From: an uncultured Pseudomonadales bacterium
Lineage (GTDB): Bacteria > Pseudomonadota > Gammaproteobacteria > Pseudomonadales > Azotimanducaceae
Reading direction: 5' to 3'
DNA length: 64,000 nucleotides
NCBI GenBank assembly: GCA_958296405.1
Contig: OY282519.1
Location: 2,898,132 to 2,962,131, forward strand
Part shown: in pieces, positions 38,024 to 48,610 of the stretch
Layout: every line of letters starts with the position of its first letter
How positions within the stretch are numbered: position 1 is the stretch's first letter
Translations under genes and position numbers: made by a program
Notes under the pieces: model-generated
What the model was told of the DNA's origin: nothing
The model's database searches: none
Seen by the model: only the letters and a program-made list of their open reading frames with translations

Positions 38024-40849
38024 ATGAGGGCCCACGACATCGATTTCGGCACGCCTGCTCCCCCGGCGGCAACCCCTGTGCAACTGACGGTCGATGGCAT
38101 CGCAGTGTCTGTTCCCGCCGGCACATCCGTCATGCGCGCCGCCGTTTCCGCCGGCGTCCCCATCCCCAAGCTCTGCGCCACGGACAGCCTGCAGGCGTTC
38201 GGCTCTTGCCGCATGTGCTTGGTGGAAATCGAAGGCCGGCGCGGCTTCCCCGCCGCCTGCACGGAGCCAGTGGCCGCCGGCATGGCCGTGCGCACGCAGA
38301 GCGAGGCCATCGCCAAGCTGCGTCGGGGCGTGATGGAACTGTACATCTCAGACCATCCGCTGGACTGCCTCACCTGCTCCGCCAATGGAGACTGCGAACT
38401 GCAGGACATGGCCGGCGCCGTTGGCCTGCGCGAAGTGCGCTACCGCGACGGCGAACACCACCTGGACGCGCCGACGGACGCCTCCAACCCCTACTTCGCC
38501 TTCGATGCCTCGAAGTGCATCGTCTGCTCGCGCTGCGTGCGCGCCTGCGAGGAGATCCAAGGCACGTTCGCCCTCACCATCGATGGGCGCGGATTTGCCA
38601 GCGCCGTCGCCACCAGCGCCGAGGACTTCTTCTCCTCCGAGTGCGTGTCCTGCGGCGCCTGCGTGCAAGCCTGCCCCACGGCCACGCTGATGGACAAATC
38701 CGTCATTGAGCACGGCGTGCCAGACCGCGTGGTGAAGACCACCTGCGCCTACTGCGGGGTGGGCTGCTCGTTCAAGGCGGAGGTGAAGGGCGGTCAAGTG
38801 GTGCGAATGACGCCAGACAAAGACGGGCTGGCGAACCACGGCCACTCGTGCGTGAAGGGGCGCTATGCCTGGGGCTACGCGCAACATGGAGACCGCATCA
38901 CCACCCCCATGATCCGCGAGGACACCAGCGACCCTTGGCGCACGGTGTCTTGGGACGAGGCCATCAGCTTCGGCGCGGCGCGCATCAAGGCGATTCAAGC
39001 GCGGCACGGCGGCAAGTCTGTCGGCGGCATCACTTCCTCGCGGTGTACCAATGAGGAGGTTTGGGTGGTGCAGAAGCTGGTGCGCGCCGCGTTTGGCAAC
39101 AACAACGTGGACACTTGCGCCCGCGTGTGCCATTCGCCCACCGGCTACGGCCTGCAGCGCGCCTTCGGCACCTCCGCCGGCACCCAGGACTTCGACTCGG
39201 TGGCAGCCGCGGACGTCATCATGGTGATCGGCGCCAACCCGACGGAAGGCCACCCGGTGTTCGCTTCGCAGATGAAGCGGCGGCTGCGCGAGGGCGCCGG
39301 CCTCATCGTGGCAGACCCGCGCCGCATCGCGTTGACGCGCTCCCCCCATGTGGAAGCGAATTGCCACTTGGCCGTGCTGCCCGGCGCCAACGTGCCGCTG
39401 ATGAACGCCTTTGCCCATGTGGTGGTGACCGAGGGGCTCATCGACGAACGCTTCGTCGCAGAACGCTGCGACATGGAATCTTTCCGCGAGTGGCGGGAGT
39501 TCGCGGCCCAGAGCGAGCACTCGCCGGAAGCGGCGGCGGCACCGACCGGCGTTGCGGCGGAGGACATCCGTGCCGCGGCGTGCCTGTACGCCACCGCCGG
39601 CAACGCCGCCATCTACTATGGGCTGGGCGTCACCGAGCACAGCCAAGGCTCCACAATGGTGATGGCGATGGCCAATTTGGCCATGGCCACCGGCAACTTG
39701 GGCCGCCCCGGCGTCGGCGTCAATCCGCTGCGCGGGCAGAACAATGTGCAGGGCTCGTGCGACATGGGTTCATTCCCGCATGAACTGCCCGGCTATCGCC
39801 CCATCGAGGAGGACGCCGTGCGGGCGACGTTCGACGCCGCTTGGGGCGTGCCGCTCGACAGCGCGCGTGGCCTGCGCATCCCCAACATGCTGGACGCCGC
39901 CTGCGCCGGCGCGTTCAAGGGGCTGTACATCCAAGGCGAGGACATCGCTCAGTCAGATCCAAACACGCAGCATGTGGAGGCGGCTCTAGACGCGATGGAG
40001 TGCGTCATCGTGCAGGATTTGTTCCTGAACGAAACAGCGAAGTTCGCGCATGTGTTCCTGCCCGGCACATCCTTCTTGGAAAAGGACGGCACCTTCATCA
40101 ACGCTGAGCGCCGCATTAACCGCGTGCGGCCGGTGATGCCGCCGAAGACGGGCATGGCGGAATGGGAGGTGACGCAGGCCCTCGCGCAAGCGTTGGGCTA
40201 CCCCATGCGCTACGCATCCACCAGCGAGATATTGGATGAGGTGGCGTCGTTGACGCCCACCTTCGCCGGCGTCTCGTTCGACCTGCTGGACCGCGTTGGC
40301 AGCGTGCAATGGCCGTGCAACGACGACGCACCGGAAGGCACGCCGATCATGCATCGGGACGCCTTCGTGCGCGGCAAGGGGTTGTTCGCGCTCACCGCCT
40401 ATCAGCCCACGCCGGAACGGGCGAACCGCAAGTTCCCGCTGCTGCTCACCACCGGGCGCATCCTCACGCAGTACAACGTGGGCGCGCAAACGCGGCGCAC
40501 CGAGAACACCGCATGGCTCGATGAAGACCGCTTGGAAATCCACCCTGTCGATGCGCAACTGCGCGGCATCCAAACGGACGATTGGGTGTCTGTGACGAGC
40601 CGCATGGGAGAGATTGCGCTGCGGGCGGAAGTGACGGAGCGGGTGGCGCCCGGCGTTGTGTACACCACATTCCATCATCCGGCCACGGGCACCAACGTCA
40701 TCACCACAGATTTGTCGGATTGGGCGACGGACTGCCCGGAATACAAGGTCACCGCGGTGGAAGTGCGCCCGGCAAACCATCGCTCGCCTTGGCAGGAGGC
40801 GTTCCGCGCCCGCGACGCGGAACAGATAGACCTCTTGCCGGCGGGATAA
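38024..40849 (+). CDS. fdsA: NAD-dependent formate dehydrogenase alpha subunit, molybdopterin catalytic, 941 aa
   Basis: N-terminal NuoG-like region with [2Fe-2S] (Cys51, 62, 65, 79), the His/Cys cluster (His111, Cys115, 118, 124), two ferredoxin clusters (165-175, 207-217) and the FdhF-type [4Fe-4S] (Cys241, 244, 248, 276). The Mo ligand is Cys369 in CARVCHSP followed by His370, so this is the cysteine, not selenocysteine, form. The C-terminal molybdopterin-dinucleotide-binding domain (RILTQYNVGAQTRRT) is present. Oxidises formate to CO2 (or the reverse), supplying NADH. No neighbouring fdsD small subunit was found. Confidence 0.95.
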   Translation: MRAHDIDFGTPAPPAATPVQLTVDGIAVSVPAGTSVMRAAVSAGVPIPKLCATDSLQAFGSCRMCLVEIEGRRGFPAACTEPVAAGMAVRTQSEAIAKLRRGVMELYISDHPLDCLTCSANGDCELQDMAGAVGLREVRYRDGEHHLDAPTDASNPYFAFDASKCIVCSRCVRACEEIQGTFALTIDGRGFASAVATSAEDFFSSECVSCGACVQACPTATLMDKSVIEHGVPDRVVKTTCAYCGVGCSFKAEVKGGQVVRMTPDKDGLANHGHSCVKGRYAWGYAQHGDRITTPMIREDTSDPWRTVSWDEAISFGAARIKAIQARHGGKSVGGITSSRCTNEEVWVVQKLVRAAFGNNNVDTCARVCHSPTGYGLQRAFGTSAGTQDFDSVAAADVIMVIGANPTEGHPVFASQMKRRLREGAGLIVADPRRIALTRSPHVEANCHLAVLPGANVPLMNAFAHVVVTEGLIDERFVAERCDMESFREWREFAAQSEHSPEAAAAPTGVAAEDIRAAACLYATAGNAAIYYGLGVTEHSQGSTMVMAMANLAMATGNLGRPGVGVNPLRGQNNVQGSCDMGSFPHELPGYRPIEEDAVRATFDAAWGVPLDSARGLRIPNMLDAACAGAFKGLYIQGEDIAQSDPNTQHVEAALDAMECVIVQDLFLNETAKFAHVFLPGTSFLEKDGTFINAERRINRVRPVMPPKTGMAEWEVTQALAQALGYPMRYASTSEILDEVASLTPTFAGVSFDLLDRVGSVQWPCNDDAPEGTPIMHRDAFVRGKGLFALTAYQPTPERANRKFPLLLTTGRILTQYNVGAQTRRTENTAWLDEDRLEIHPVDAQLRGIQTDDWVSVTSRMGEIALRAEVTERVAPGVVYTTFHHPATGTNVITTDLSDWATDCPEYKVTAVEVRPANHRSPWQEAFRARDAEQIDLLPAG

Positions 40850-45941: not shown

Positions 45942-45969
45942 TTGACATCCGCGCCCGCCACGCCATTAT
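45942..45969 (+). promoter_or_regulatory. Candidate promoter for the selenoprotein gene
   Basis: A perfect TTGACA (45942-45947) and CATTAT (45964-45969) are 16 bases apart. A start site about 7 bases downstream would fall at or next to the ATG at 45977, so the mRNA could be leaderless. Confidence 0.45.
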
Positions 45970-45976
45970 GGCGGGC

Positions 45977-46606
45977 ATGAGCGAATTCTGGACAACGAGT
46001 TTCGGCAAGGGCGTGGCAGCGCTTGCCGTGGGGTGGCTGCTGGCGCTGCCGGCCAATGCCTCTGAGCAAGGGGAGGCTTGGGGGCCGGCCGTCGGCACCG
46101 AGATGCCGGCCATCGCCGCCAACGACCAAACCGGGGCGTTGCGGGAGCTTGAGAACTTGGGCGGCGAACGCGGGCTGCTGTTCTTGATCGTCCGCAGCGC
46201 GGATTGGTGACCTTACTGCAAGGCCCAACTCGTGAAGTTGGGGGAATGGCAGGACGACTTTGAGGCGCTTGGGCTATCGGTCGCCACCATGAGCTACGAC
46301 GGCGTCGATGTGCTGGCGGAGTTCACCGCCGACAACGACATCGGTTACCCCATGCTTTCCGATGGTGGCGTGGACGACGCGCCGGCTGGGGCGCGGGCGC
46401 AGATGCTTGGCATCCTGAACGAGCAGTACGCGCCCGGCCATCCCGCGCACGGCATCGCGCATCCGGGCATTCTCCACATTGACGCCGAAGGCATCATCCG
46501 GCAGAAGTGGGCTGAAGAAGGATACCAAGAGCGCCCGCAGTTTGCCGACGTGCTGCAAGACCTTCAGGCGCTGCTGGGTGAGGGCGAAAACGCCGAATCT
46601 CCGTAG
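45977..46606 (+). CDS. Candidate selenoprotein, exported peroxiredoxin/thioredoxin-like, UxxC motif, 209 aa with TGA read as Sec
   Basis: The frame from ATG 45977 (or 45968) runs to a TGA at 46208-46210 and continues without break to a stop at 46606. The two parts make one redoxin-fold protein: signal peptide (about 1-26, AVGWLLALPANAS), GTEMPAIAANDQTG, LLFLIVRSADW-U78-PYC81, then KAQLVKLGEWQDDFEALGL, GYPMLSDGG and HPGILHIDAEGIIRQKW. The TGA falls exactly where the redox Cys of a C-x-x-C motif is expected, as in known Sec-containing AhpC/TSA-like proteins. A SECIS-like hairpin starts 13 bases after it. A simple nonsense mutation is possible but fits less well. It probably acts in the periplasm on peroxides or disulfides. 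Confidence 0.82.
46217..46252 (+). promoter_or_regulatory. Bacterial SECIS-like element downstream of the TGA
   Basis: Upper stem CCCAACT (46224-46230), loop CGTGA, AGTTGGG (46236-46242), a perfect 7-bp stem with G as the second loop base. A lower stem CTGC/GCAG (46217-46220 with 46249-46252) extends it. The loop begins 20 bases after the TGA, inside the range known for bacterial SECIS elements, which need a G in the first two loop positions. Confidence 0.75.
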
Positions 46607-47261: not shown

Positions 47262-47963
47262 ATGACCGTCGCCGCCAAGTTCGATCCGCTGCGTTCAGAA
47301 CGGCCATTGATCGTTTACATCGATTTCAAGAGCCCCTACGCCTTCATCGCCAAAGACCCGACCTATGCCTTGGCCGAACATTTGGCGATCGACATCGACT
47401 GGCGCCCGCTCACGCTTGACATTCCGAGTTTTCTCGGTTCCGCCCGCCTCGGCGCGAAAGACGAGGTGGTGGCGCAGAACCGCACCCCGGAGCAGTGGCG
47501 TGGCGTGAAGTACGCCTATCGGGACGCACGCCGCTACGCGCGGCTGAGCGGCTATCTGCTGCGCGGCACCGTCAAGATCTGGGACACCTCTCTCGTCCAC
47601 ATTGGCATGATGTGGGCGAAGCGCCACGGTGACGCGGTGTTGGCGCGCTACCTGAACGAAAGCTATGCACGATTCTGGCGCCGCGAGTTCGATGCGGAAG
47701 ATGCCGGCGTCGTCACCGCTGCGCTCGCTGCCGCTGGCGCTGAAACAGACGGGTTCGAGGCGTTCCACGAAGGGCCGGGCCGGGTGGAGCACGATGCGAT
47801 GCAGGCCGCGATCTTCGACGCCGGCATCTACGGCGTGCCCGGCTATGTGGTGGAAGGCGAGTACTTCTTCGGCCGGGAACACCTGCCGATGGTGCGTTGG
47901 ATTCTCACCGGGCGGCGGGGCGCAGCGCCAGACGTGGCCTACCAACACTTCGCCGCGTCCTGA
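47262..47963 (+). CDS. DsbA-family (2-hydroxychromene-2-carboxylate-isomerase-like) protein, 233 aa
   Basis: Thioredoxin fold with helical insert, no signal peptide: VYIDFKSPYAFIAKDPTYAL with S-P-Y in place of C-x-x-C, a long helical middle and the cis-proline region GIYGVPGYVVEGEYFFGREH. This variant is typical of the glutathione-dependent HCCA isomerase / kappa-GST branch rather than disulfide oxidases. GGGAGG lies 11 bases before ATG 47262. Confidence 0.85.
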   Translation: MTVAAKFDPLRSERPLIVYIDFKSPYAFIAKDPTYALAEHLAIDIDWRPLTLDIPSFLGSARLGAKDEVVAQNRTPEQWRGVKYAYRDARRYARLSGYLLRGTVKIWDTSLVHIGMMWAKRHGDAVLARYLNESYARFWRREFDAEDAGVVTAALAAAGAETDGFEAFHEGPGRVEHDAMQAAIFDAGIYGVPGYVVEGEYFFGREHLPMVRWILTGRRGAAPDVAYQHFAAS

Positions 47964-47998
47964 CCGATGGCGACCAACGAGCCCTGCGCGAAGCAACC

Positions 47999-48610
47999 AT
48001 GACTGAAGCGTTGCCGCCTGCCTCGCCGCTGACCGTCACGTTGGACGTGAAGCGCCCGGAGTGCTACTTGGCCATCGCGCCCACCCGCGCGCTCGCCGCG
48101 GAGCTCGGCATCGCGGTGGATTGGTTGCCGACCATCGCTTCGCCGCACCGCCGCCCGCCGGCTGGGGATGGCCGCAGCGAGCGGCACCTGCGCCACCGCG
48201 CCACCTACAACGCCCAAGAAATCGAGCGTTACGCAGCGGTGCAGGGGTTGGTGATCCAAGACATCTACCGAGACCCAGACTCCACCCTGTTCGGCATGGC
48301 GATGCTGGCCGCCAAAGCCCATTCAGACGCCGCCGTGCACGCTTTCCTGGATCGCGCGTTCGCGGCCTATTGGCGCTCGGAACTGGACATTGAAGACCGG
48401 GCGGCGCTAGGCAGCCACCTGAGTGCCGCGGGCGTCGCGGCCTTTGCGGAAAACGCTGCCGAGTTCGAAGCGCTGCAGGCGCGCATCGCCGCGGCTGGCC
48501 TCTTCAACGCCCCGGCCTATCTGGTTGGCGACGAAGTCTTCTTTGGCCGCGCCCACCTGCCGATGATCCGCTGGCTCCTGACGGACCGCGCCGGGCCACC
48601 GCCCATCTGA
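47999..48610 (+). CDS. Second, diverged DsbA-family protein, 203 aa
   Basis: Same architecture as the gene just upstream (VTLDVKRPECYLAIAPTRAL, LFNAPAYLVGDEVFFGRAHL), so probably a tandem duplicate. The active-site triplet is changed from S-P-Y to R-P-E-C and a stretch near residues 40-65 is shorter, so catalytic ability may differ. ATG 47999 lies 35 bases after the first gene's stop. Confidence 0.83.
   Translation: MTEALPPASPLTVTLDVKRPECYLAIAPTRALAAELGIAVDWLPTIASPHRRPPAGDGRSERHLRHRATYNAQEIERYAAVQGLVIQDIYRDPDSTLFGMAMLAAKAHSDAAVHAFLDRAFAAYWRSELDIEDRAALGSHLSAAGVAAFAENAAEFEALQARIAAAGLFNAPAYLVGDEVFFGRAHLPMIRWLLTDRAGPPPI

Follow-up and report, generated by a model that had tools for sequence, protein, structure and literature searches.

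Comparative sequence analysis confirmed positions 45968-46606 of the analyzed window (a 64,000-nucleotide stretch of the genome of an uncultured Pseudomonadales bacterium) as a genuine selenoprotein gene and not a broken gene, and the stop codon inside it is almost certainly read as selenocysteine (Sec). The product is probably an exported thioredoxin-fold redoxin, in which the UGA at 46208-46210 would be decoded as Sec by SelB and Sec-tRNA-Sec under the direction of an mRNA hairpin (probability of about 0.96). The initial annotation had interpreted this gene as a candidate selenoprotein, and that interpretation stands with very high confidence. The features of the locus were as follows:

45968..46606, + strand: gene for a UxxC redoxin selenoprotein that looks exported (212 aa, Sec81, Cys84, AhpC-TSA domain at residues 42-179)
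45977..46060, + strand: likely signal peptide, a hydrophobic run to LPANA followed by SE (identified by eye from the sequence)
46208..46210, + strand: in-frame TGA, almost certainly read as selenocysteine in W-U-P-Y-C (same place in 30/31 homologous loci; Sec machinery in the genome)
46224..46242, + strand: upper stem-loop of the bSECIS (stem of 7 bp closing the loop CGTGA; the inner six pairs, 46225-46230/46236-46241, conserved)

Reading Frame and Conservation of the Redoxin Gene

Read-through across the TGA, which corresponds to residue 81 of 212, yielded a single unbroken protein ending at the TAG at 46604-46606, with ATG 45968 or ATG 45977 as candidate start codons. The 131 open codons 3′ of the TGA have a chance of about 4% in random sequence of the same composition. 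In profile searches, the AhpC-TSA domain (PF00578) was found at residues 42-179 with 68 bits (cut-off 26), and PF08534 scored lower (36.2 bits, cut-off 26.6). The AlphaFold model of the redoxin, built from three sequences, was poor (mean pLDDT 52.5); in this model, residue 81 directly preceded the helix that comes after a strand, as in thioredoxin folds.

Homologs were sought in 58 genomes, namely, the window genome, 8 genomes of its genus, 28 of its family and 21 of its order, and redoxin matches at E ≤ 0.001 were detected in 41 of them. Exactly one TGA was present in 45 of the 48 match rows at E ≤ 1e-10, and rows weaker than this threshold were mostly without an internal stop. The three other rows comprised G031, where two TGA and a TAG were counted because the match extends beyond the gene end; the copy G023:C49:36051-36584 (L033), which has decayed, carrying Trp in place of Sec along with internal TAG and TAA, and still adjoins the TRAP operon; and G006:C109 (L154 365-547), in which the redoxin likeness stops right after ADW, at the Sec site. 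Within the family of the window organism, a TGA-bearing copy was present in 33 of the 37 genomes examined. The single in-frame TGA described in the initial annotation at the redox position, ADW-TGA-PYC, was upheld: the frame is continuous, and U in W-U-x-x-C was found in 30 of the 31 loci read closely, the remaining one being the decayed copy with Trp. The branch is marked by the motif R-[ST]-x-x-W-U-[PS]-x-C-x-x-Q-[LF]-V, and R76, W80, U/C81, C84, Q87 and V89 were invariant in 24 aligned sequences. A further TGA-bearing Prx-like protein with the motif VWUPPC and 31% identity was identified in L153 (1480-2000).

Class-wide, five of 274 genomes gave a match at E ≤ 1e-20, that is, the window genome itself (G000) and four distant matches, which had no internal stop and carried Cys in CxxC at the Sec position when aligned by eye. 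The homologs thus hold Sec (30/31 loci) or Cys (the four distant matches) at this position, and the lack of any conserved Cys or Sec, named beforehand as an argument against the selenoprotein reading, was not encountered. Compared with G008, 24 of the 38 nucleotide differences 3′ of the TGA fell at third codon positions, and 21 of the 33 codon changes were silent; the corresponding values 5′ of the TGA were 7/15 and 7/14.

Conserved Hairpin 3′ of the TGA

In bacteria, SelB delivers Sec-tRNA to a UGA codon when a hairpin lies at the right distance from it. The hairpin in the window consists of CCCAACT (46224-46230), the loop CGTGA (46231-46235) and AGTTGGG (46236-46242), with 20 nt between the TGA and the loop start. 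The bSECIS rules given in PMC13188914 comprise a loop of 3-9 nt, a stem of 4-16 bp, G in loop positions 1-2, a distance of 16-37 nt from the UGA and MFE ≤ -7.5; the values obtained here were 5 nt, 7 bp, G in the second position followed by U, 20 nt and -15.7 kcal/mol, in line with the agreement in position and loop base that had been noted at the outset. The fold of the single sequence was unremarkable relative to shuffles (z = -0.96, -0.46 and -1.96 for 54, 41 and 27 nt, respectively). As this lone fold is not unusual and the 131 open codons have a chance of about 4%, the case rests on the relatives, namely, on their identical TGA, the shared protein 3′ of it and the covarying stem.

The RNA alignment included 29 of the 31 loci (27 distinct sequences), with L033, which has no TGA there, and L042, which lies too near a contig end, left out. 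For the six stem pairs, 98.1% of cells were paired (86.2 in shuffles), both sides had changed in 23 cells (6.1 in shuffles) and covariation was 0.421 (0.167 in shuffles); none of 500 shuffles, which do not remove the relatedness of the sequences, reached any of these values. When the partner side was slid by 1 to 3 columns, at most 48.8% of cells paired. The outer conserved pair, which joins a third codon position to a first position six codons on, varied as C-G, U-A, A-U and G-C, and the G in the second loop position followed by U was invariant in the 27 distinct sequences. At the seventh position of the window hairpin, the outermost one, pairing was seen in 10 of 29 loci, and the closest relative (91% identical) had an A-C mismatch within the stem. 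Two of five whole-structure measures were not above shuffles (both-side-changed pairs, 3 vs. 2.5; further pair types, 7 vs. 6.7). Of the two-part hairpin initially described, the upper CCCAACT/AGTTGGG stem with its CGTGA loop shows conservation at the RNA level and is retained on the strength of covariation; the lower CTGC/GCAG stem, in which 69.4% of cells pair vs. 68.4% in shuffles, is unsupported, and its CTGC begins at 46216 rather than at 46217. The four distant CxxC matches folded more weakly (-5.9 to -6.8 kcal/mol), one of them (L054) keeping a wide-loop hairpin, and as four sequences they are no fair control. A search of the window genome with SECIS model R1, in which 150 of 1914 candidates were scored, returned this gene and one match at E 6.7, which leaves room for other SECIS elements.

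Selenocysteine Decoding Machinery

The window genome is a single contig of 3,825,434 bases (98.31% complete), in which selA, selB, selC and selD are all present. The tRNA-Sec was located at 3042485-3042572 (69.7 bits, gathering cut-off 47), and ARAGORN reported a tRNA-SeC with anticodon TCA. Profile searches placed selA at 3032580-3033920 (514 bits), selB at 3033938-3035773 (376 bits) and selD at 2468163-2469059 (268 bits), each above its cut-off. The genome search proposed in the initial annotation was answered in this way, and the absence of selB or selC, which it had named as an argument against Sec, was not observed; selA and selB lie 70 kb past the window end and were therefore invisible to its author. 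The selD sequence forms the C-terminal portion of a 729-aa reading frame (L018 331-2520), whose N-terminal portion is long and in which GGCGAK contains Cys; this frame is probably an Ndh-SelD fusion of the type described in PMC2398784.

Across the 58 genomes, selA above the cut-off and a TGA homolog (E ≤ 1e-10) occurred together in 29, the TGA homolog alone in five, selA alone in six and neither in 18 (Fisher p = 6e-6, in a test whose significance is inflated by kinship). The five genomes with the TGA homolog alone were G001 (71% complete), G035 (85% complete), G023, G025 and G034. In G025 and G034, a contig start truncates the selA gene, and counting the cut pieces of G023, G025 and G034 changed the figures to 32 with both and two with the TGA homolog alone. 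G023 was scored as TGA-bearing through a second copy, 31% identical; the idea that it had lost selA along with its redoxin was rejected, its selA being broken by a run of N.

Interpretation of the In-Frame TGA

What the sequence shows directly is the TGA codon and its conservation, a covarying hairpin and the Sec machinery; actual Sec insertion, export and the redox chemistry are inferred. The mRNA hairpin, with its loop starting 20 nt past the UGA, would direct SelB with Sec-tRNA-Sec to the codon; Sec81 and Cys84 would make up a U-x-x-C redox pair located where the first helix of the domain begins, and in this pair Sec81 may react with a peroxide or disulfide, with Cys84 as the resolving residue. 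The most likely role of the redoxin is that of an extracytoplasmic thiol:disulfide (selenenylsulfide) oxidoreductase or of a protein that reduces peroxides.

A pseudogene or a sequencing error turning a Cys or Trp codon into TGA would have some precedent among the relatives, since the copy in G023:C49 has truly decayed and the likeness in G006:C109 stops after ADW; however, 30 of the 31 loci, which come from many genera, share the identical TGA, coding constraint persists 3′ of it and the hairpin covaries, which makes this explanation very improbable. Even smaller is the likelihood that the TGA is a true stop followed by a separate reading frame from GTG 46232. That codon is available as a start in the list of open reading frames, but it sits within the hairpin; the AhpC-TSA domain covers both sides of the TGA, whole-protein matches continue through it in the homologs, and such a division would split U-x-x-C. 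An altered code or general read-through, placing Trp or another residue at the TGA, is comparably negligible, and no observation in its favor was made: TGA ends five of the ten window reading frames inspected, the genome has tRNA-Sec and selB, and the four distant CxxC matches have Cys at the position (by eye).

Relation to Known Selenoprotein Families

The predicted Sec-containing redoxin can be placed with the known Prx-like UxxC selenoproteins (PF00578), to which it is likened by domain and motif; the PF00578 domain, the UxxC motif and an in-frame UGA aligned to the redox Cys/Sec of homologs were all found. With the Prx-like thiol:disulfide oxidoreductase selenoprotein, as outlined in PMC13188914, PMC9312934 and PMC2398784, it has PF00578, U-x-x-C and the in-frame UGA with a bSECIS in common, whereas the present branch looks exported, has its own motif and bears its TGA copy across most of the family genomes. 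This nearest known kind probably corresponds to ‘Prx-like 1’ of the GOS survey. The redoxin family selenoprotein (PF08534, UxxC) is also comparable, as PF08534 matches the window protein below the PF00578 score. The selenocysteine peroxiredoxin (TxxU) likewise has PF00578, but the window protein has Ala three residues before U, so that TxxU was not found in it, and its U opens U-x-x-C; in the loci read, the residue at this place was Ala, Thr, Val or Ser. The SelL-related redox protein model NF040769 gave 29.8 bits, below its curated cut-off of 120.

Other Selenium Candidates in the Genome

A formate dehydrogenase gene of the window provides context:

38024..40849, + strand: alpha subunit of formate dehydrogenase, in which CARVC contains Cys and not Sec

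The Cys in CARVC, which we take to be the position of the Sec site, was seen as originally reported. The PF00384 search of the window genome revealed two proteins, both without an internal stop, and no Sec formate dehydrogenase. The PF00578 search gave 11 places, two of them with a TGA, namely, this gene and 1609627-1609983. The latter belongs to a second putative Sec redoxin, P0002 (G000:C1:1609537-1610058; L067, L112), at 1.61 Mb, with F-Y-R-G-H-W-U-P-Y-C. Its matches at E ≤ 1e-15 made up 19 rows, each with a single TGA, from 18 of the 58 genomes. The P0002 hairpin is nearer its TGA, and, as raw counts, six of its seven positions pair in 17-19 of the 19 rows and the seventh in 11; G is not always present in its loop. 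Two redoxins appear to use Sec in the window genome, the formate dehydrogenase found using Cys, and two is a lower bound for the genome, as obtained from the PF00578 and PF00384 searches.

Gene Neighborhood and the TRAP Transporter Operon

The flanks of the redoxin gene were compared in 19 relatives, with the TRAP operon genes identified by Pfam on four genes of L078 and elsewhere by tblastn with these. The genes TAtT-DctP-DctQ-DctM directly followed the redoxin on the same strand in seven of the 19 (G013, G014, G019, G024, G026, G028 and G036), with redoxin-TAtT gaps of 7 to 214 nt, varying with the start codon chosen; in G012, TAtT lay about 4 kb past the redoxin, at a contig end. Examination of the TAtT surroundings in 17 genomes added G025, with a redoxin cut by the contig start, and G023, with the decayed redoxin, and in G011 the redoxin was found about 3.4 kb upstream of TAtT. 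The other 14 surroundings, those of the window genome and G008 included, had no such redoxin in the stretches examined, some of which were short. In total, eight related genomes carried the redoxin directly upstream of the TRAP operon (L075, L077, L078, L079, L083, L085, L087 and L150), and a ninth carried a decayed copy (L151). TAtT was above the cut-off in 33 of 58 genomes, the copy of the window genome being at 2602175, about 340 kb away. The redoxin-TRAP link is partial, and its presence in relatives and absence in the window genome was the least expected result. For P0002, a TRAP link was considered and rejected as not conserved: a DctM match lay alongside only in the window genome and G008 of 19 loci, and it was a different DctM (about 29% identical).

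Other neighbors in the window included a tandem pair of DsbA-like genes shortly downstream of the redoxin (47262-48610), matched only in G008 among the 19 neighborhoods, and a luciferase-like monooxygenase downstream, matched in seven of 19.

As a tentative and rather doubtful suggestion, the Sec redoxin of the family could work with a periplasmic, T-component-containing TRAP transporter as its redox partner, reducing the ligand of the transporter or keeping its periplasmic parts reduced, in either case outside the cell membrane; it would be for redoxins of this kind, and not for formate dehydrogenase, that the lineage retains its whole Sec system. In literature searches that paired TRAP transporters or TatT with selenoproteins or redoxins, none of the papers listed dealt with such a link, as judged from the listings; one of them, PMC13429387 on Lactobacillus, contains both ‘TRAP transporter’ and ‘selenoprotein’.

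Biological Significance

FdhA is described in PMC13188914 as the most widespread bacterial selenoprotein, and in 2006 it was given as the only selenoprotein of Pseudomonadales (Zhang 2006, PMC1794560). Gene callers that take TGA as a stop would make the redoxin end early or start late, and it is probably misannotated across the bacterial family. The link to the TRAP operon in relatives provides a testable lead to the role that such Sec redoxins may have.
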